In this document: positions 1 through 7,928 of the stretch, piece after piece
How the letters are laid out: the number at the start of each line of letters is the position of its first letter
How positions within the stretch are numbered: position 1 is the first letter of the stretch
NCBI GenBank assembly: GCA_017437705.1
Contig: JAFRYJ010000289.1
Location: 1 to 7,928 of the forward strand
DNA: 7,928 nucleotides
Origin: Lachnospiraceae bacterium
GTDB taxonomy: Bacteria > Bacillota_A > Clostridia > Lachnospirales > Lachnospiraceae
Direction: 5' to 3'
Translations under genes and position numbers: made by a program
The notes under the pieces: generated by a model
What the model saw: the letters and a program-made list of their open reading frames with translations, nothing else
Told to the model about the DNA's origin: nothing
The model's database searches: none

Positions 1-69
1 ATCGATGACTTCCTGACTGAGCCCCAGTTTCTTAATGATGTCGGAATCCCTTTCAAATATCTTGACTGC
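1..69 (-). pseudogene. feoB: FeoB continuation beyond the in-frame stop (partial, cut by the left edge)
   Basis: Reading past the TAA at 70-72 in the same frame gives 23 uninterrupted codons to the window edge, beginning AVKIFERD and ending LGLSQEVID. This is the conserved helical stretch that follows the G domain in FeoB, where Firmicute proteins usually read RWYA(I/V)K.FERD. The match on both sides of the stop, with no shift of frame, points to a single-base nonsense change of a Tyr codon (TAT or TAC to TAA). No start codon or ribosome site precedes the fragment, so it is not an independent gene start. The membrane permease part of FeoB would lie further left, outside the window. Confidence 0.75.
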
Positions 70-966
70 TTACCATCTTTGAGTGGTTTCGTCGGAATCG
101 TGGAGGCAGGCCTCCTCGATGTGTGCGAGAGCATGCTCCACGGGACCGGAGAATTCGTGGCGGGGTATATGCCGTCCTTCTGCCGCGGCCTCAAGGGCTG
201 CCTCCGCAGCTCGCAGTGTATTCTCGCCCTTAAGGGCGGATATCTCTATGATCCGGCAGTTGAAAGCCTTCGAAAGCTTGTCGATATCGATGGAGTCGCC
301 GTTTTTCCTTACGACGTCCATCATGTTTACGGCTATGACCATGGGAATGCCCAGCTCCGCCAGCTGCGTCGTAAGATAAAGGTTTCGCTCCAGGTTCGTG
401 CCGTCCACTATGTTGAGGATGGCGTCGGGCCTTTCGTCAATAAGGAAATTTCTTGCTACGACTTCCTCCAGAGTATAGGGAGAAAGAGAGTAGATGCCGG
501 GAAGGTCGACGATCTTTACGTCGCTGTGCTTTTTAAGACGGCCTTCCTTCTTTTCGACCGTAACGCCGGGCCAGTTTCCGACGAACTGGTTGGCGCCCGT
601 AAGGGCGTTGAACAATGTTGTCTTGCCGCTGTTGGGGTTTCCCGCCAGGGCTATCCGTATCTCTTTATCCTTCTCCATATTCTTTTTCCTCTTCCGTGTT
701 TTGTCCGCTTTTTCTTCAGCGGTCTCTGAAGCTTCCGTTTCCGGTGCTTCCACAATGATCATTTCGGCATCGGCCTTCCTTACGGAAAGCTCGTATCCCC
801 TTACGGTGATCTCCATGGGATCTCCGAGAGGGGCCACCTTTATGACCTTGATGGTCACTCCCTTGGTGATGCCCATATCCATGATCCTTCTTTTTACGGC
901 GCCTTCGCCCGTAAGCTTTTTGACCTTAACGGTATCACCGATCCGGACATCCTTTAATGTAGTCAT
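70..966 (-). CDS. feoB: FeoA-FeoB fusion, ferrous iron transporter; truncated by an in-frame stop after the G domain
   Basis: FeoB is the inner-membrane Fe(II) permease with a cytosolic GTPase domain. Residues 1-72 form a FeoA-like SH3 domain (RRIMDMGITKG). A charged linker (about 73-96) leads to Met97, where unfused FeoB proteins would begin. The G domain shows G1 GNPNSGKT (109-116), G2 Thr in WPGVTVE (133-139), G3 DLPG (154-157), G4 NMMD (214-217) and G5 SALKG (243-247). The frame stops after QRW at residue 298, where FeoB normally continues with Tyr and then hundreds of membrane-spanning residues. As written, the product is a soluble FeoA plus G-domain protein without a permease. The start ATG follows GGGAGG by 5 bases and lies 10 bases after the feoA stop, so the two are cotranscribed. 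The gene is either a recent pseudogene or carries a sequencing error. Domain identity is secure; functional status is not. Confidence 0.9.
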   Translation of the reverse strand: MTTLKDVRIGDTVKVKKLTGEGAVKRRIMDMGITKGVTIKVIKVAPLGDPMEITVRGYELSVRKADAEMIIVEAPETEASETAEEKADKTRKRKKNMEKDKEIRIALAGNPNSGKTTLFNALTGANQFVGNWPGVTVEKKEGRLKKHSDVKIVDLPGIYSLSPYTLEEVVARNFLIDERPDAILNIVDGTNLERNLYLTTQLAELGIPMVIAVNMMDVVRKNGDSIDIDKLSKAFNCRIIEISALKGENTLRAAEAALEAAAEGRHIPRHEFSGPVEHALAHIEEACLHDSDETTQRW

Positions 967-976
967 ATAAGCCTCC

Positions 977-1189
977 CTAAATCATTATTTTCGACGCCAT
1001 CTCCTTACTGATGGCTATCCTTGAATCCTTGACTTTTACGATCAGGTTTCCGCCGTTTGAGGACACCACCGTGGCGGAGCTTCCCGGGACGAAGCCCATA
1101 TCAGCCAGGTGCTGCCTGGTCTCGGGACTCCCACCTATCCGCGCAATGATGTTTTCCTCGCCCTCGTCTGCAAATATCAGGGGCAGCAT
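977..1189 (-). CDS. feoA: FeoA, small SH3-like partner of the ferrous iron transporter
   Basis: This 70-residue protein has the length and sequence of a stand-alone FeoA, a small cytosolic protein thought to bind FeoB and tune its activity. The typical core is visible: an N-terminal strand, a helix with RQHLADMGFVPG (about residues 25-36), then strands ending in RIAISKEMASKIMI. The ATG is preceded by GAGGAGGTG with a good 6-7 base spacing, which fixes the start. It is the first gene of the minus-strand feo operon, followed after 10 bases by the feoA-feoB fusion, so the operon encodes two FeoA domains. Its promoter at 1256-1284 is covered by DtxR-like operators, so repression by iron is the likely control (inference). 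Confidence 0.9.
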   Translation of the reverse strand: MLPLIFADEGEENIIARIGGSPETRQHLADMGFVPGSSATVVSSNGGNLIVKVKDSRIAISKEMASKIMI

Positions 1190-1232
1190 TTCGGCACCTC
1201 CTCAGCATAAGTAATAGTTTTCAAGAACATAT

Positions 1233-1273
1233 GTTAGCCCTCTCTAATAACTTGAATGATAGTCTTAACTAAC
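1233..1273 (-). promoter_or_regulatory. Proximal pair of DtxR/IdeR-like operators at the feoA promoter
   Basis: Two palindromes with 5-6-5 geometry lie 25 bases apart, start to start: 1233-1248 reads GTTAGCCCTCTCTAAT and 1258-1273 reads GATAGTCTTAACTAAC. Each departs from GTTAG-N6-CTAAC at one base. The known DtxR/IdeR 19-bp box can be read as two overlapping TTAG-N6-CTAA units, so the spacing fits that family and not a Fur box. One site covers the -10 and much of the spacer of the feoA promoter; the other covers the predicted transcription start. Assignment to a DtxR-family iron repressor is inference; the repeats are directly visible. Confidence 0.7.
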
Positions 1274-1284
1274 AGTAATGTCAA
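1256..1284 (-). promoter_or_regulatory. Proximal feoA promoter
   Basis: On the minus strand, TTGACA (1284-1279, a perfect -35) is followed by exactly 17 bases and TATCAT (1261-1256, five of six -10 matches). The predicted start near 1249 gives a leader of about 60 bases ahead of the feoA ATG. The -10 box and spacer overlap one GTTAG-N6-CTAAC operator, and a second operator sits just downstream, an arrangement suited to repression. Confidence 0.75.
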
Positions 1285-1327
1285 TAGCCTTATTTGTGTT
1301 TCAAATAACATACTCAGAATAGAGCAT

Positions 1328-1364
1328 AAAAAAACCGCTCGAGGGTGCGTATGGCCCGGACGGT
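1328..1364 (-). terminator. Intrinsic terminator in the feoA upstream leader
   Basis: On the minus strand, ACCGTCCGGG (1364-1355) pairs with CTCGAGCGGT (1343-1334) around an 11-base loop. Nine of ten positions pair, two of them as G-U wobbles, with one C-A mismatch. The stem runs directly into seven T residues (1334-1328). Its 5' arm is also the 3' arm of a competing 12-bp stem, so termination could be conditional. Confidence 0.65.
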
Positions 1365-1578
1365 GAAACGGCTGATTACAGATCCTTACTATGCCGTCCG
1401 CCATATCCGGCATCAGGTCTCCCTGAAGTCGCAGCCCCGGATATGGCATTTGCGGCATCCGTACAGGAGTTGAGCACGGATGAATGATGCAGCATAGCAA
1501 TAATAAGGAAGTTTTATCCCGCAGGATATTTACGGTTTGATCCGCGGTATTCTCAAAGGGGGTTAGGTAAAACTAACT
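1328..1578 (-). ncRNA. Structured leader RNA or small RNA between the two feo promoters, class unknown
   Basis: This gene-free stretch would be transcribed leftward from the distal promoter (predicted start near 1578) to the terminator at 1328-1364, giving about 250 nt. In transcript order it holds: a 7-bp stem, CATCCGT with ACGGATG (1482-1476 with 1462-1456); an 11-bp perfect stem (1447-1437 with 1410-1400) enclosing a 5-bp hairpin capped by GAGA, a GNRA tetraloop only on this strand (1426-1413); a 12-bp stem with a two-base bulge (1405-1394 with 1363-1350); and the terminator. The second and third stems share 1400-1405, and the third stem and terminator share 1355-1363, so neighbouring stems exclude each other. 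That is the usual anti-antiterminator, antiterminator, terminator layout. I could not match it to a known riboswitch, T-box, 6S or SRP RNA. An independent small RNA is the alternative reading. Confidence 0.55.
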
Positions 1579-1602
1579 ATATGCATGTTAGCATAGCCTA
1601 AC
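1562..1602 (-). promoter_or_regulatory. Distal pair of DtxR/IdeR-like operators
   Basis: Two palindromes with perfect arms, GTTAGGTAAAACTAAC (1562-1577) and GTTAGCATAGCCTAAC (1587-1602), again lie 25 bases apart. They are placed exactly as the proximal pair: one ends 5 bases from the -35 box and overlaps the -10, the other lies at the predicted start. These are the best copies of the motif in the window. The TTAG-N6-CTAA unit matches that of DtxR/IdeR boxes; the regulator itself is not in the window. Confidence 0.75.
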
Positions 1603-1613
1603 CGATGTGTCAA
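1585..1613 (-). promoter_or_regulatory. Distal leftward promoter upstream of the structured leader
   Basis: On the minus strand, TTGACA (1613-1608, perfect) is followed by 17 bases and TAACAT (1590-1585, four of six matches) preceded by TGC, an extended -10. It would drive the structured leader and, if the terminator is read through, feoA. It lies exactly 329 bases upstream of the proximal promoter and has the same operator geometry. Confidence 0.65.
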
Positions 1614-1648
1614 TAACAAATTTTTATCTTTTCTTATCAAAATTCCTA

Positions 1649-1657
1649 TGATATAAT
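1649..1657 (+). promoter_or_regulatory. Extended -10 promoter for scfA
   Basis: TGATATAAT (TG at 1649-1650, perfect TATAAT at 1652-1657) lies about 44 bases before the scfA ATG in an AT-rich stretch. No good -35 stands 16-18 bases upstream (TTTTCT at 1629-1634 is the nearest), which the extended -10 could offset. It is divergent from the distal feo promoter, whose -35 box ends 36 bases to the left. Confidence 0.6.
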
Positions 1658-1700
1658 TTTACGGTATATTGGTATAAGTTCGTAAAACAGGAGGTTCATC

Positions 1701-1844
1701 ATGAAACATATAAAGGAAGTTGAAACAAAAGAGCTCAGGAAGACCGTCAAGGACGGCGGATGCGGCGAGTGCCAGACATCATGCCAGTCTGCCTGCAAGA
1801 CTTCCTGTACTGTAGGAAATCAGACCTGCGAGCATTCAAAATGA
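1701..1844 (+). CDS. scfA: SCIFF ranthipeptide precursor, six cysteines in a 47-residue peptide
   Basis: The 47-residue peptide begins MKHIKEVETKELRKTVK and has the hallmark core GGCGECQTSCQSACKTSC followed by TVGNQTCEHSK. Its six cysteines are C21, C24, C28, C32, C36 and C43, the pattern that defines SCIFF (six cysteines in forty-five residues) peptides of Clostridia. These are ribosomal peptides in which the partner radical SAM enzyme forms a Cys-to-Thr thioether. From what I recall of a studied homologue the link is C32 to T37, and both residues are present at those positions here. AGGAGG (1689-1694) stands 6 bases before the ATG. No protease or dedicated exporter gene follows, and the biological role of SCIFF is not established. 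It is followed by a strong hairpin and then by its maturase. Confidence 0.93.
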   Translation: MKHIKEVETKELRKTVKDGGCGECQTSCQSACKTSCTVGNQTCEHSK

Positions 1845-1861
1845 TATTTGTTTAAGTCTTG

Positions 1862-1887
1862 GACCCCGGGACAGCCGTTCCGGGGTC
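1862..1887 (+). promoter_or_regulatory. Intercistronic hairpin between scfA and scfB
   Basis: GACCCCGG (1862-1869) and CCGGGGTC (1880-1887) form a perfect 8-bp stem with a 10-base loop. AAAAG follows rather than a T-tract, so this is not a classical intrinsic terminator. Its place between a small precursor gene and its catalytic enzyme suggests mRNA stabilisation or partial attenuation that yields more peptide than enzyme (inference). Confidence 0.6.
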
Positions 1888-1913
1888 AAAAGTGTGTATG
1901 GGAGTCGTATTAA

Positions 1914-3287
1914 GTGGTCCATCAGTACAGATCGAACGGTCACAATATAGTCCTGGATGTTAATTCGGGCAGCGTTTTCATACCCGACGATATGACGTAC
2001 GAGATCATATCAATGTATGAGGAAGCGGACAGGGAGACCGTCATCGGAAAACTTAATAATAAATACAGCGAAGAAGATCTGAAAGAAGCCTACGAAGAGG
2101 TCACACAGCTGAAGGACGAAGGCAAGCTCTTTACGGAGGACGCCTTCGAGCCCGTTATTGACGCCTTCATGGAAAGAAGGCAGCCGGTGGTAAAGGCGCT
2201 TTGCCTTCATATCGCCCACGACTGCAACCTGGCCTGCAGATACTGCTTTGCCGGCGAGGGAGAGTATCACGGAAGACGCGCCCTTATGAGCTTCGAAACG
2301 GGAAAGAAGGCTCTGGATTTCCTTATCGCCAATTCGGGGAACAGGAAAAACCTGGAGGTGGATTTCTTCGGAGGAGAACCCCTTATGAACTGGCAGGTGG
2401 TAAAAGACCTGGTGGTTTACGGCAGGGAGCAGGAGGAGCGGTTCAATAAACGCTTCCGCTTTACGCTCACCACCAACGGAGTGCTTTTAAACGACGAGAT
2501 CTGCAGCTTCCTCAATAAGGAAATGTCCAATGTGGTCCTTTCCATCGACGGGCGTCCGGAGGTCAACGACAATGCAAGGCCCTTCAGGAACGGAAGAGGC
2601 AGCTACGACATCATCCTGCCGAAATTTCTGAAGCTGGCGGAGCAGAGGAACCAGACGGACTATTACGTAAGAGGCACCTTTACAAGATGGAACCTGGATT
2701 TTTCGGAGGACGTGCTCCATCTTGCGGACCTCGGCTTCAAACAGATATCGGTGGAGCCGGTGGTGGCGGATCCTTCGGAGGAATACGCTCTCAGGGAGGA
2801 GGATCTGCCTCAGATAATGGAGCAGTACGACAGGCTGGCTTCGGTGATGCTCAAGCGTCAGAGGGAGGGCAGAGGCTTCAACTTCTTCCATTTTATGATC
2901 GACCTTTCCGGCGGCCCCTGTGTATATAAAAGGCTTTCGGGCTGCGGATCCGGATCGGAGTATCTGGCGGTAACGCCATGGGGAGACCTTTATCCTTGCC
3001 ATCAGTTCGTGGGGAACGAGGATTTTCTTCTCGGCAACGTGGACGAGGGCATCAGAAGGACGGATCTCGTGGAAACGTTCTCCGGCTGCAATGTATATAA
3101 AAAGCCGGAGTGCAGGAAATGCTTCGCCAGGTTTTACTGCAGCGGCGGATGCGCTGCGAATTCATATAATCAGCATAAGGACATCACGGCCCCTTACAGG
3201 ATCGGCTGTGAGATGATGAAAAAAAGGATAGAATGTGCCATAATGCTTAAGGCGGTAATGGCAGAGGACGGAGGTAAATTGTCATGA
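1914..3287 (+). CDS. scfB: SCIFF maturase, radical SAM/SPASM thioether-forming enzyme
   Basis: The 457-residue enzyme acts on the scfA peptide. Residues about 1-90 resemble a PqqD-like RiPP recognition domain that would bind the leader (NIVLDVNSG, then helices). The radical SAM core starts at 95 with the [4Fe-4S] motif CNLACRYC (C104, C108, C111) and the SAM-binding GGEP (153-156). A SPASM/twitch region with auxiliary Fe-S ligands occupies the C-terminal third: C336, C344, C362, C392, C400, C403, C409, C413 and C432, including GPCVY, PCHQF and ECRKC..RFYCSGGC. The GTG start at 1914 is chosen because GGGAG (1900-1904) stands 9 bases upstream and the N-terminus then aligns with known maturases. 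The stop overlaps the secDF start as ATGA. At least three Fe-S clusters make it a heavy iron user beside an iron-uptake operon. Confidence 0.93.
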   Translation: MVHQYRSNGHNIVLDVNSGSVFIPDDMTYEIISMYEEADRETVIGKLNNKYSEEDLKEAYEEVTQLKDEGKLFTEDAFEPVIDAFMERRQPVVKALCLHIAHDCNLACRYCFAGEGEYHGRRALMSFETGKKALDFLIANSGNRKNLEVDFFGGEPLMNWQVVKDLVVYGREQEERFNKRFRFTLTTNGVLLNDEICSFLNKEMSNVVLSIDGRPEVNDNARPFRNGRGSYDIILPKFLKLAEQRNQTDYYVRGTFTRWNLDFSEDVLHLADLGFKQISVEPVVADPSEEYALREEDLPQIMEQYDRLASVMLKRQREGRGFNFFHFMIDLSGGPCVYKRLSGCGSGSEYLAVTPWGDLYPCHQFVGNEDFLLGNVDEGIRRTDLVETFSGCNVYKKPECRKCFARFYCSGGCAANSYNQHKDITAPYRIGCEMMKKRIECAIMLKAVMAEDGGKLS

Positions 3288-5431
3288 AGGAACACAAAAG
3301 GAGGAATATAATCGTATTCATCCTTATCCTGATACTTACAGCGGCATGCGGATATGTAGCGGTAAACGGTGTCGGGGAAAAGCATCAGGGAGCGGCTAAG
3401 AACATTACGCTGGGCCTGGATCTGGCCGGCGGCGTAAGCATCACATACGAGGCGGTGGACGAGGATCCCTCAAGTGCGGACATGTCCGATACCGTATACA
3501 AGCTGCAGCAGAGAGTTCAGGCATATTCCACCGAGGCGCAGGTCTATCAGCAGGGATCCAACAGGATCGCCGTGGAGATCCCCGGCTTCTATGATGTGGA
3601 TTCGGCCATGGAGACCCTGGGAGCACCAGGTTCCCTCATTTTCATGGAAGAGGTGGAAGGGTATCTGAGCCCCGTCTGCACCGGCGACCAGGTCGTTGAT
3701 GCACAGGTTTATTCGGGACAGGATACATACGGCAACACAAAGTATTCCGTAAGGCTCACCTTTAATGAGGAAGGCACGGAGGCTTTTGCCGAGGCAACAT
3801 CAAGGAACGTGGGCAAGCCCATTTACATCGTATACGACGGAAACATCATTTCCAGCCCCAACGTAAAGCAGGCCATCACAGGCGGAGAGGCTTATATCGA
3901 AGGCGATTTCAGCTTCCAGGAGGCCGACGTGCTTGCAACGTCCATCAGGCTGGGAACACTTAATCTCGAGCTTAAGGATATCTCTTCAAACGTAGTCGGA
4001 GCACAGCTTGGCGACGAGGCTGTAAGCACGTCCCTCAAGGCGGGCATCATCGGCGTAGGCCTTGTAATACTCCTGCTCATCATCCTCTACAGGATCATGG
4101 GTGTGGCTGCAGGCATCGCTCTTATATTCTACGTGCTTGCAACACTGCTTCTCCTTAACGCGCTGGATATCACCCTTACGCTGCCCGGTATAGCCGGCGT
4201 TATCCTGGCCATAGGAATGGCGGTGGACGGCAACGTCATCATATTCTCGCGTATCAAGGAGGAGATCGGAAACGGCTCCAACGTAAGGAACGCCATAGAC
4301 GCCGGCTTCAAGAAGGCCCTTTCGGCCATCATAGACGGCAATATCACCACGCTTATAGCGGCAGCGGTGCTTTATGTCATGGGCACCGGTTCCATAAAGG
4401 GCTTCGCGCAGACCCTGGCGCTGGGCATCGTTCTTTCAATGATAACGGCCCTCCTGTTCACCAGGGCCATCCTCAAAGCCTTCTATTCCATGGGCTTTAC
4501 GGACGAGAAGTATTACGGGAAGACGAAGGAAAAAAAGATCATCCGCTTTGTGGAGAACAAACGCAAGTACTTCATTGTCTCCCTGCTGCTCATCGGCGCA
4601 GGCGTTGTGGCCATGCTGGTATACAACGGAAAAGAGGGCAAGCCCCTTAATTTCGGTCTCGACTTTACGGGCGGCACGTCCTACAACATCACTTTTGACG
4701 AGCATATAAGCGTTACCAGTGAGGAGGGGCAGAAGCTCCGTTCCTACATCGAAGAAGCCATCGGAACCTCCGATGTACAGCTCCAGAACGTAACGGGCAA
4801 GAACGAGATCGTTATAAAGACCCAGGTGCTTGACACCGAGAAGAGGCAGGCGCTCATGAAGGCCATCAGGGATAATTACAGCATCCAGGAGGAGCTCACG
4901 AGCCAGGATACCATAAGCGGCGTCATCTCCAACGAGATGAGACGTGATGCGGTAGTATCCGTCATCATCGCACTGGTCTGCATGCTCGTATATATCTTTA
5001 TAAGGTTCAGGGACTGGAAGCTGTCCGTATGCTCCATCGTGCCCCTTATCCACGATGTCCTCGTCGTTATAGGCGTCTACGCCATCACCAGGATATCGGT
5101 GGGCAATACGTTCATAGCATGTATGCTCACCATCGTAGGTTACTCCATCAATGCGACCATCGTTATCTTCGACCGTATCAGGGAGAACCTTAAGAAAAAC
5201 AGCAGCGCGGATCTGGCGACGGTGGTAAATACCAGCATCACCCAGACCCTTACAAGATCCATATATACATCGGTGACCACACTCATAACCGTGCTCGCCC
5301 TCTTCATTCTCGGCGTTACGAGCATCAGGGAGTTCACCTTCCCTCTGATGTGCGGCATCATCTGCGGAGCATATTCATCAGTCTGCATCGCGGGTACGCT
5401 TTGGTACATCATGAAAAGAGGAAAAAGATAA
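3284..5431 (+). CDS. secDF: SecDF, fused protein translocase accessory subunits SecD and SecF
   Basis: This 715-residue membrane protein uses the proton gradient to help SecYEG-SecA complete protein export. One N-terminal membrane segment (about 8-28) is followed by the SecD periplasmic motif LGLDLAGGV (43-51), an outer domain to about 245, and six-helix SecD membrane core with MAVDGN (312-317; Asp315 is the conserved proton-path residue). SecF starts near 425, with its own first helix, NFGLDFTGGT (456-465), and a second membrane core from about 555. SecF has YSINATIVIFDRI (620-632), where many homologues have Asp at Ala624; Arg658 in TLTRS is kept. Single-chain SecDF is common in Firmicutes. 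The ATG overlaps the scfB stop (ATGA), with GGAGGT (3270-3275) 8 bases upstream inside scfB, so translation is probably coupled. It ends in tandem TAA codons. Confidence 0.95.
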   Translation: MKEHKRRNIIVFILILILTAACGYVAVNGVGEKHQGAAKNITLGLDLAGGVSITYEAVDEDPSSADMSDTVYKLQQRVQAYSTEAQVYQQGSNRIAVEIPGFYDVDSAMETLGAPGSLIFMEEVEGYLSPVCTGDQVVDAQVYSGQDTYGNTKYSVRLTFNEEGTEAFAEATSRNVGKPIYIVYDGNIISSPNVKQAITGGEAYIEGDFSFQEADVLATSIRLGTLNLELKDISSNVVGAQLGDEAVSTSLKAGIIGVGLVILLLIILYRIMGVAAGIALIFYVLATLLLLNALDITLTLPGIAGVILAIGMAVDGNVIIFSRIKEEIGNGSNVRNAIDAGFKKALSAIIDGNITTLIAAAVLYVMGTGSIKGFAQTLALGIVLSMITALLFTRAILKAFYSMGFTDEKYYGKTKEKKIIRFVENKRKYFIVSLLLIGAGVVAMLVYNGKEGKPLNFGLDFTGGTSYNITFDEHISVTSEEGQKLRSYIEEAIGTSDVQLQNVTGKNEIVIKTQVLDTEKRQALMKAIRDNYSIQEELTSQDTISGVISNEMRRDAVVSVIIALVCMLVYIFIRFRDWKLSVCSIVPLIHDVLVVIGVYAITRISVGNTFIACMLTIVGYSINATIVIFDRIRENLKKNSSADLATVVNTSITQTLTRSIYTSVTTLITVLALFILGVTSIREFTFPLMCGIICGAYSSVCIAGTLWYIMKRGKR

Positions 5432-5443
5432 TAATAAAAATAC

Positions 5444-5467
5444 GATGCCCCGGTGATCCGGGGCATC
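5444..5467 (+). promoter_or_regulatory. Intercistronic hairpin after secDF
   Basis: GATGCCCCGG (5444-5453) and CCGGGGCATC (5458-5467) form a perfect 10-bp stem with the 4-base loop TGAT, 12 bases after the secDF stop. The sequence after it, ACTGTCTTG, is not a T-tract, so efficient intrinsic termination is doubtful. It shares its CCCCGG/CCGGGG core with the hairpin after scfA. An mRNA 3'-end stabiliser or weak attenuator is likely. Confidence 0.55.
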
Positions 5468-5482
5468 ACTGTCTTGACCCGT

Positions 5483-5515
5483 GAAAACGCCCGCACATAT
5501 ACAAAAGGCGTTTTC
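5483..5515 (+). promoter_or_regulatory. Hairpin abutting the recJ ribosome site
   Basis: GAAAACGCC (5483-5491) and GGCGTTTTC (5507-5515) form a perfect 9-bp stem with a 15-base loop. It ends two bases before AAGGAG, the recJ ribosome-binding site (5518-5523). Its A-rich left arm and TTTT right arm resemble a weak bidirectional terminator, but its place suggests an effect on recJ translation. Function is inference. Confidence 0.45.
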
Positions 5516-5527
5516 AGAAGGAGCCCA

Positions 5528-7327
5528 ATGGAAGATAAGTGGACCGTTGCCGCAAAGAAGGCGGATTTCAGCGGTATAGCCTCAGAACTGAATATAAGTC
5601 CCTATCTTGTGAGGCTCATGGTCAACAGGGGAATGACGGATCCCGAAGAGATGCGGCATTATCTGTGGGGCACCATGGACGATCTCAGGAGCCCCTATGC
5701 CATGAAGGATATAGAAAAGGGCGCGGACATCATAAGGGAAGCCATACTTTCCGGCGGGAAGATAATGATCTGCGGCGATTACGACGCCGACGGCGTTTTC
5801 TCCTCGTATATCCTCAAGAGGACCATAACGGCCCTGGGCGGCCAGGCCTACGTCAATATACCCGACAGGGTAAAGGAAGGCTACGGCATGAACATGAGGA
5901 TGGCGGAGGAGGCCGTAAGCTCCGGCTTTTCCGCCGTCGTTACCTGCGACAACGGCATCGACACCCGGGAGCCGGTGAAAAGACTGATGGAAGCAGGCAT
6001 CAGGGTGGTGGTGACGGACCATCACGAGGTGCCCCGGGATGATGACGGGAAGGAGATCCTCCCCGACGCCGACGCGGTGATCGATCCCAAGCAGGATGGC
6101 TGCGGATATCCCTTTAAGGGCATCTGCGGCTGTATGGTGGCATACAAGCTGCTGCAGGTCCTTACGGACAGGTTTTCCGCCGCCGGAGACATAAGCATCC
6201 TTAAAGCCCAGCAGCTTATGGACGATCTCACTGTCTATGCAGCCATTGCAACGGTGACCGACGTCATGGAGCTTAAGGACGAAAACAGGATCATCGTAAG
6301 GGAAGGCCTTAAAAAGCTGGCTAAGACGAAGGAGCCGGGCCTTTCGGCCATCATGGACGTCTGCAGTGTGGACAGGGAAAAGCTGTCGGCATACCATATA
6401 GGCTTCATCATCGGCCCCTGCTTCAATGCGGCGGGCAGGCTCTACAACGCGTATCATGCATTTGATCTTCTTGAATGCAGAGATCACGAAAAAGCCTTTG
6501 AGCTGGCTTCAAAGCTGAGGGAGATGAACGACGAGAGGAAGTCTCTCACGGAACAGGCTGTAAAACTGGCGGAAAAAGAGATAGAAGAGCACCCTGAGAT
6601 CAAAAAGGACAGCATCTTCGTGCTGCTGATGCCGCCGGGCACCCACGAGAGCCTTGCCGGTATCATAGCGGGCAGGCTCAAGGAATACTATTCAAGGCCT
6701 GTCATAGCCTTTACGTCGGTGGGGAACGGAATCGTCAAGGGCTCGGGAAGATCCATAGACGAGTACGACCTTATGAAGAATCTGTCGAAATACAAAGAGC
6801 TTTTCATAAATATGGGCGGACACGCCGCGGCCTGCGGCATCACCATGAAAAAGGACGATCTGGAGGAACTGAGCCGCAGGGTAAACGAGGACTCGCCACT
6901 TACGGAGGACCAGCTTGTAAAGAAGGTCCTCATAGACATACCCATGCCCGTCCAGTATATGACTTCGGAATTCATAAGGGAGCTGGATATGATGGAGCCC
7001 TTCGGCAAGGGCAATAAAAAGCCTCTCTTCGCGGAGAGTCATTTCAACATCATGAAGGCTGCGGTAACGGGCAGGAACAGAAACGTCATAAGGATGAAGG
7101 TGAGAAATACATCCGGTCATACCTGTGATGCGGTGCTTTTCGGCGAACCGGAAAAATTCATCCGTTTTCTGACAGACAGCTTCGGCAGGGAGGAATGCGA
7201 CAGGGTCTTCAGCGGAGAGCCCAATAATATTGATGCGGCACTGTCCTATTATCCCGCGGAAGACACCTGGAACGGGAATACCCGCATACAGATAGTGATA
7301 CAGAATTATTGCAGGATCAGCGGATAA
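5528..7327 (+). CDS. recJ: RecJ, single-stranded-DNA-specific 5'-3' exonuclease
   Basis: RecJ degrades single-stranded DNA from the 5' end in recombination and mismatch or base-excision repair, using Mn/Mg held by DHH motifs. The 599-residue product is close to family length (E. coli about 577) and has the motifs in order: CGDYDADG (82-89), VTCDNGID (138-145), VVTDHHE (161-167, the DHH signature), VIDPK..GYPF (184-196), IGPCFNAAGRL (295-305, usually GPRINAAGRL), then the DHHA1 part with THESLAGIIAGRL (372-384) and MGGHAAACG (429-437), and a C-terminal OB-like domain (about 465-599). The start at 5528 is chosen for AAGGAG 4 bases upstream. An open frame extends back to a GTG at 5453, but that codon lies inside a hairpin and adds 25 residues foreign to RecJ. 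It is in line with secDF, 96 bases downstream. Confidence 0.94.
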   Translation: MEDKWTVAAKKADFSGIASELNISPYLVRLMVNRGMTDPEEMRHYLWGTMDDLRSPYAMKDIEKGADIIREAILSGGKIMICGDYDADGVFSSYILKRTITALGGQAYVNIPDRVKEGYGMNMRMAEEAVSSGFSAVVTCDNGIDTREPVKRLMEAGIRVVVTDHHEVPRDDDGKEILPDADAVIDPKQDGCGYPFKGICGCMVAYKLLQVLTDRFSAAGDISILKAQQLMDDLTVYAAIATVTDVMELKDENRIIVREGLKKLAKTKEPGLSAIMDVCSVDREKLSAYHIGFIIGPCFNAAGRLYNAYHAFDLLECRDHEKAFELASKLREMNDERKSLTEQAVKLAEKEIEEHPEIKKDSIFVLLMPPGTHESLAGIIAGRLKEYYSRPVIAFTSVGNGIVKGSGRSIDEYDLMKNLSKYKELFINMGGHAAACGITMKKDDLEELSRRVNEDSPLTEDQLVKKVLIDIPMPVQYMTSEFIRELDMMEPFGKGNKKPLFAESHFNIMKAAVTGRNRNVIRMKVRNTSGHTCDAVLFGEPEKFIRFLTDSFGREECDRVFSGEPNNIDAALSYYPAEDTWNGNTRIQIVIQNYCRISG

Positions 7328-7337
7328 TTAGTATAAT
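7309..7337 (+). promoter_or_regulatory. Candidate apt promoter at the 3' end of recJ
   Basis: TTGCAG (7309-7314, three of six -35 matches), a 17-base spacer and a perfect TATAAT (7332-7337) straddle the recJ stop codon. A start near 7344 would give a leader of about 64 bases ahead of apt. This would let apt be expressed independently of the upstream genes. The -10 is strong and the -35 weak. Confidence 0.4.
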
Positions 7338-7407
7338 GAAATTTATCTTTTTAACCGTTTTGTGAAATAAGATCAACAAATCATTTTATACGAAAGAGGT
7401 ACGAAAA

Positions 7408-7928
7408 ATGGCTAAGAAACTTGAAGATTATGTGATCAGTATCCCCGATTTCCCCATGGAAGGCATCATTTTCCGTGATGTTACCGGCGTCATCAGAGAT
7501 CCCGAAGGCCTCAGAATGGCTATCGACACCCTCACGATGATCTGCGGCGACGTTCATGCGGATCTTATCGCAGGTCCCGAGGCAAGAGGCTTCATCTTCG
7601 GTGTTCCCCTTGCATACAAGCTGGGCCTGGGCTTCATCCCCATAAGGAAGAAGGGCAAACTCCCCAGAGAGACCGTGGAAGAGACATATACGCTTGAGTA
7701 CGGCACAGCCACCGTGGAGATCCACAAGGACGACATCAAGCCCGGACAGCGCGTTGTCCTGGTAGACGATCTTCTTGCCACAGGCGGCACCTGCCTTGCA
7801 AACATCAAGCTTATCGAAAGCCTGGGCGGCGTGGTTGAAAAGGTAGTATGCCTTATCGAGCTTGCAGGCCTTAAGGGCAGGGAACTCCTCAAGGGATACG
7901 ATGTTATATCAGCCATCAAGTACGAAGG
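7408..7928 (+). CDS. apt: Adenine phosphoribosyltransferase (partial, cut by the right edge)
   Basis: Apt converts adenine and PRPP to AMP and pyrophosphate in purine salvage, in the cytoplasm. The first 173 codons are present. They begin MAKKLEDYVISIPDFP and show GIIFRDVTGV (19-28), the GPEARGF segment (57-63), IPIRKKGKLP (77-86) and the PRPP-binding motif VLVDDLLATGGT (117-128). Clostridial Apt proteins are about 170-175 residues, so only a few residues are likely missing past the edge. AAGAGGT (7394-7400) lies 7 bases before the ATG. The gene follows recJ after 80 bases with no visible terminator between them. In related Firmicutes apt often precedes relA (established context, not visible here). 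Confidence 0.95.
   Translation, partial: MAKKLEDYVISIPDFPMEGIIFRDVTGVIRDPEGLRMAIDTLTMICGDVHADLIAGPEARGFIFGVPLAYKLGLGFIPIRKKGKLPRETVEETYTLEYGTATVEIHKDDIKPGQRVVLVDDLLATGGTCLANIKLIESLGGVVEKVVCLIELAGLKGRELLKGYDVISAIKYE

Follow-up and report, generated by a model that had tools for sequence, protein, structure and literature searches.

A predicted iron-repressor-controlled small RNA gene, partly of feoB descent, between SCIFF and feoA in a Lachnospiraceae bacterium

Introduction

Metal-linked structured RNAs that end in a terminator are familiar from the NiCo (czcD) riboswitch (RF02683) and from other terminating metal riboswitches, to which the RNA described here bears a general resemblance. A different precedent is offered by plant microRNA genes that arose through inverted duplication, whose hairpin arms correspond to a fragment of a protein gene and to the reverse complement of that fragment. 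Closest in role are the iron-responsive small RNAs (sRNAs) of other bacteria: according to the portion of one report that deals with them (PMC9410917), FsrA, RyhB, PrrF, and MrsI have a role in common with IsrR but share neither synteny nor sequence with it, and MrsI is predicted to be under the control of IdeR. Because these sRNAs are alike in role and not in synteny or sequence, missing homology is no argument against such a role for the RNA considered here.

We analyzed a 7,928-nucleotide stretch of a Lachnospiraceae assembly (GenBank GCA_017437705.1, contig JAFRYJ010000289.1, positions 1 to 7,928; here called the window), in which a reading of the letters alone (the sequence-only reading) had placed an unassigned riboswitch-like RNA upstream of feoA. 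With moderate confidence, we predict that the element is a stand-alone sRNA gene between SCIFF and feoA that is lineage restricted, controlled by an iron repressor, self-terminating, and partly descended from feoB. Among the matches listed by a literature search, none concerns a feo leader RNA or an sRNA derived from feoB.

Results

A structured RNA in a divergent gap

The RNA occupies a divergent gap with feoA on one side and SCIFF on the other (Table 1); the rightward genes after SCIFF encode a radical-SAM protein, SecDF, a DHH-family RecJ, and a phosphoribosyltransferase. Near the opposite end of the window, an in-frame TAA (positions 70 to 72, minus strand) stops the feoB frame after QRW, and a FeoB-like frame runs on to the window edge; either the gene is broken here or the sequence contains an error.

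Table 1. Coordinates of genes, predicted RNA features, promoters, and boxes in the window (G233 is the genome carrying the homologous RNA)
Feature	Position	Strand	Remarks
Fused FeoA-FeoB, N-terminal part	70-966	leftward	
feoA	977-1189	minus	Pfam FeoA
Box TTAGCCCTCTCTAA at feoA promoter	1234-1247		Beyond the RNA terminator
Predicted feoA promoter, TTGACA-N17-TATCAT	1256-1284	minus	Promoter scan
Predicted free-standing small RNA, ~250 nt	1328-1578	minus	Ends estimated; fold z -2.89, 1/200 shuffles as good
Intrinsic terminator of the RNA	1328-1364	minus	9/10 pairs, -8.8 kcal/mol, seven T
Core closed by P1, UUGCUAUGCUG with CGGCAUAGUAA	1384-1500	minus	11 pairs; 2 changed on both sides, 0 broken
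P3 and apical GAGA hairpin	1400-1447	minus	11 pairs: 10 unvaried, 1 changed on one side
P2 arm	1456-1483	minus	Window only; G233 lacks P2
Conserved 5' block, CCUGCGG...AAAACUUCCUUAUUAUUGCUAUG	1493-1531	minus	feoB-like sense; 29/33 identical to G233
P0 hairpin, UAUCC-UGCG-GGAUA, conserved CCUGCGG	1513-1526	minus	Versus G233: 2 pairs changed on both sides, 1 broken
Second DtxR/IdeR-type box, TTAGGTAAAACTAA, at predicted RNA start	1563-1576		RNA promoter
Predicted RNA promoter, TTGACA-N17-TAACAT	1585-1613	minus	Promoter scan; G233 counterpart at same position, TTGACA-N17-TACAAT
DtxR/IdeR-type box, TTAGCATAGCCTAA, between -35 and -10	1588-1601		RNA promoter
SCIFF	1701-1841	plus	Divergent from the RNA; Pfam SCIFF; neighbor of the RNA in both species

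The stems on which the sequence-only reading was built are real. A base-by-base check finds standard pairs at 11 of 11 positions of the stem joining 1447-1437 with 1410-1400, 12 pairs and a two-base bulge in the stem joining 1405-1394 with 1363-1350, and 9 of 10 standard pairs (two of them G.U, with one C.A mismatch) in the terminator stem joining 1364-1355 with 1343-1334, which is followed by seven T (1334-1328). Successive stems share the bases attributed to them (1400-1405, then 1355-1363), and the GAGA tetraloop is found within a CAGG-GAGA-CCTG hairpin. The minus-strand orientation assigned to the RNA also stands, with a fold that stands out from shuffles (z -2.75; 1 of 200 does as well); that of the plus strand is unremarkable (z -1.20; 26 of 200 shuffles as good). 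A generic terminator scan reported 0 terminators in this region (0.6 expected in shuffles), as the mismatch and the long loop cause it to miss this one. Absent from the earlier account were P1, P2, P0, the two promoter-like sites, and the three repressor-type boxes; because the predicted fold adds P1, P2, and P0, the core is expected to form a three-way junction and not just a single hairpin.

No known RNA class had been recognized in the sequence, and Rfam agrees: at the gathering score, there are 0 matches in the window, nor are there any in the two comparison loci treated below (L121 and L068). A relaxed search of the window returned three matches, all at chance level, and NiCo (RF02683), put forward earlier as a class to check, is missing from the results even when E values up to 10 are admitted.

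A homologous RNA in one related genome

A homologue of the RNA is present in G233, the sole genome of its genus in the comparison set and the nearest to the window by SecDF among 397 family genomes (79% identical; the next reaches 60%). It lies on the minus strand of locus L121 (~13772 to 14045), divergent from SCIFF. The local alignment of the two RNAs scores 47.9, versus at most 21.3 in 500 shuffles, and the fold of the G233 RNA (z -6.80) is equaled by 0 of 200 shuffles. Both RNAs have their own terminator (that of G233 has 12 pairs), and the gene downstream varies between the two species: feo in the window and tgt, not feo, in G233, so that, across these two species, the RNA does not stay with feo. 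An encoded peptide was ruled out as no long frame is common to the two RNAs. SCIFF is divergent from the RNA gene in the window and in L121 (14133 to 14264), and feo is adjacent in one species only; a connection between SCIFF and the RNA is possible and is listed here as a candidate.

The sequence-only reading had looked to relatives for conservation of the stems, and the main stem and its orientation are kept in G233. The two cores agree at 77 of 114 ungapped columns, compared with 150 of 407 four-fold sites (37%; 24% at random) in two neighboring genes; this excess over near-saturated sites, in an optimized alignment of two rows, argues for selection. The kept helices comprise 27 pairs, 4 of them changed on both sides, with 53 of 54 cells of the alignment paired. 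Slid controls reach 35 to 46% paired and no two-sided change, yet 31 of 500 shuffles reach the observed covariation values. These paired changes, from a two-row alignment with the P2 arm removed by hand from one row, are suggestive of maintained helices.

With a model built from the window and G233 sequences (R1), G233 was the only convincing member in overlapping draws of 295 relatives, 397 family genomes, and 392 order genomes, and the best 80 feo loci, not all of which include the full leader, yielded no member. Weak homologues could have been missed because the large scans used stricter filters. We attribute to chance three R1 matches outside feoB (L154, L156, and L161; E 0.12 to 0.65) and a further match in L036 (3701-3745; E 6.1). 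The SCIFF upstream regions of 20 relatives, inspected by eye, contain no such RNA; an exact pattern applied to 142 loci matched L121 alone; and of one protein scan and three pattern scans of viral contigs, one gave 6 stretches. A nucleotide search of the leader against the best 80 feo loci gave one 27-base match (E 0.03). A wider query matched 52 bases of L072 (E 4e-7), a hit rejected as an RNA homologue because the stretch corresponds to promoter and boxes. Nucleotide searches of this kind are not sensitive, as the wider query missed L121, which a pairwise search then matched.

Two predicted promoters with iron-repressor-type boxes

Between positions 950 and 1750, there are two promoter-like sites, both leftward and both with TTGACA and a 17-nucleotide spacer. 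Because shuffles yield 1.7 such sites, it is the boxes that carry the weight: the window holds three TTAG-N6-CTAA boxes (0.09 expected; 0 of 200 shuffles reach three), and all three fall within the two promoter regions. In G233, promoter-like sites are as frequent in shuffles of the region as in the region itself, and the promoter homologous to that of the RNA (TTGACA-N17-TACAAT) has two boxes, where 0.31 are expected and 11 of 200 shuffles contain at least as many.

The same box occurs no more than 400 nucleotides upstream of feoA in 63 of 68 testable loci (0.61 expected), where testable means that feoA was detected with at least 200 nucleotides upstream, as in 68 of the best 80 related feo loci; the feoA promoters in these 63 loci often have two or three boxes each. 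TTAG-N6-CTAA would accordingly seem a strong operator common to these Clostridia and to some spirochaete-labeled genomes. We take the motif to fit the DtxR/IdeR half-site pattern, with the palindrome situated at the promoter, and the box looks like a DtxR-type iron-repressor site. DtxR-family genes were found in 26 of the best 80 feo loci (tblastn with the L068 repressor as the query); the L068 repressor gene matches Pfam Fe_dep_repr_C, to which G233 has two matches. Given the boxes and the DtxR-family genes of related loci, feoA appears to own an iron-repressor-type promoter beyond the RNA terminator, like its relatives. The 52 bases of L072 (4646 to 4697), which lie upstream of feoA, are 81% identical to the promoter and boxes of the RNA, as if the promoter of the RNA were itself of feo type.

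These promoters bear directly on the sequence-only reading, in which the RNA is a feo leader whose alternative stems (P3 and P1 versus an antiterminator) let a ligand, a protein, or a metal set termination or read-through into feoA in the window species. The overlapping stems and the run of T would allow such an attenuator, and a transcript that started at the upstream promoter and passed the terminator would run on into feoA. However, feoA has its own boxed promoter-like site past the terminator, and folding gives the antiterminator little support: for the window sequence, P3 plus terminator reaches -82.1 kcal/mol and the antiterminator conformer -75.1, a deficit of 7 kcal/mol for the latter, and pairing between the 3' arm and downstream sequence is matched by 118 of 1,000 shuffles in the window and by 309 of 1,000 in G233, arguing against its conservation. 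R1 has no member in the best 80 feo loci, and with tgt in place of feo downstream of the G233 copy, switching of a feo leader is improbable as the conserved function. On these sequence comparisons, we judge the riboswitch reading unlikely; attenuation in the window species alone keeps some probability, though a low one. What survives of the reading is a structured leftward RNA, probably linked to iron; the switching of feo is not supported.

Part of the RNA resembles feoB

The G233 copy of the RNA reads PCGAKLPFIAMIVPAIFGDSAL, a FeoB fragment; in frame, it gives TILLPCGAKLPFIAMIVPAIFGDSAL, and its conserved 5' block contains the FeoB motif PCGAKLP. Compared with 12 FeoB proteins, the G233 RNA scores 93, versus at most 49 in 60 shuffles, and tblastn over a small set of loci gives 72% identity across 25 residues (E 1e-5). 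The weak R1 matches point the same way: in the best 80 feo loci (excluding the window and L121), 19 of 20 fall on the FeoB [SP]C[SG]AK motif, as do 16 of 19 in further loci from the 295-, 397-, and 392-genome draws. Pfam and NCBIfam models find no match in the frames of the element. In the window RNA, the feoB frame is broken and the FeoB match is not significant alone (26 of 60 shuffles score as high); feoB ancestry there therefore rests on homology to G233.

The element might accordingly be a decaying remnant of an older feo operon, a promoter and a scrap of feoB now without function, and feoB-derived sequence under a feo-like promoter, the broken frame in the window, and the restriction to two species all fit that account. 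We nevertheless regard decay as improbable in view of the core identity, well over that of near-saturated four-fold sites, and the helices kept by paired changes, both read from an optimized two-row alignment.

In both P1 and P3, the 5' strands are feoB-like in the sense orientation and the 3' strands complement them, a pattern suggestive of inverted duplication in an ancestor shared by the two RNAs. Such an arrangement also raises the prospect of an antisense regulator, whose 3' arms, antisense to the part of feoB that encodes PCGAKLPFIAMIAGAIFG, would pair with the mRNA and dampen feoB in iron shortage. The best predicted duplex with the feoB motif of a relative reaches -36.5 kcal/mol (the G233 arm with L034), but among the feoB genes of 45 relatives, the motif is the best site for 10 with the G233 arm and for 3 with the window arm, so that predicted pairing with relatives' feoB is weak on the whole. 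In G233, the only strong FeoB match has the motif SCTAKLP instead, and the genome, which may be incomplete, has no other strong match to the RNA; feoB as the target is not supported by G233. The window stops before its own feoB motif. We consider antisense control of feoB quite unlikely. Similarly doubtful is the fuller scenario in which the RNA gene was born by inverted duplication of a coding fragment of the neighboring feoB, stayed under the iron-repressor promoter that had served the ancestral operon, and now tunes feoB-type mRNA in iron shortage through its antisense arm.

A stand-alone sRNA as the preferred reading

Read as a stand-alone sRNA, the element would be a gene of ~250 nucleotides with its own DtxR/IdeR-boxed promoter and its own terminator. 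A metal-loaded DtxR-family repressor would block the promoters of both the RNA and feoA, and iron shortage would free the RNA together with feo. The RNA would then act in trans by base pairing, with AAAACUUCCUU, exposed in the 5' block, and the P0 loop as candidate seeds, and the P1/P3 hairpin would serve as scaffold and stabilizer, as in the iron-sparing sRNAs of other bacteria. A Shine-Dalgarno-like seed pattern has 142 matches in G233, versus 79 for the reversed control, and singles out no targets.

This sRNA reading is supported by the boxes, the conserved folded core, the terminator, the separate boxed promoter of feoA, and the feoB ancestry of part of the RNA. Against it stand the number of members (two), promoter-like sites at the level of shuffles, and a weak window terminator that the generic scan misses.

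A comparable layout occurs upstream of feoA in an uncultured Oscillospiraceae (L068, 4480 to 4764), where TTGACA, a box, TAACAT, a C/U-rich stretch, and a strong terminator succeed one another; beyond the terminator are a second boxed promoter and feoA, and a DtxR-family gene adjoins. The transcript, estimated at ~120 nucleotides, looks like a candidate iron-regulated sRNA of the FsrA type and shows no relation to the window RNA under R1. By analogy only, this layout backs the stand-alone reading. Among 12 feo loci with a distal box, a simple hairpin scan places a terminator between box and feoA in L068 alone.

Discussion

If the sRNA reading is true, it adds to the gut Clostridia an iron-responsive sRNA under a DtxR-type, not a Fur, switch and provides an RNA gene whose origin in a fragment of a transporter gene can be traced. 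The L068 layout, with its unrelated RNA, suggests that sRNAs of this kind may occur repeatedly ahead of feo and go unnoticed. A supposed riboswitch would also become a testable question of target finding.

From the NiCo riboswitch (RF02683) and other metal riboswitches, the window RNA differs in lacking a conserved antiterminator, and no fitting gene lies behind its G233 copy. Plant microRNA genes parallel the putative feoB-derived arms, although the present case is bacterial and concerns one long structured RNA, for which targeting of the parent gene is a candidate only. Conservation between the window and G233 RNAs does not extend to C-rich loops like those of IsrR, and the window RNA, with a feoB-derived core and no Rfam match, differs in these respects from FsrA, IsrR, RyhB, PrrF, and MrsI alike. 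What it has in common with those five, as predicted for the window, is the design of a small, terminator-ended RNA under an iron-repressor promoter.
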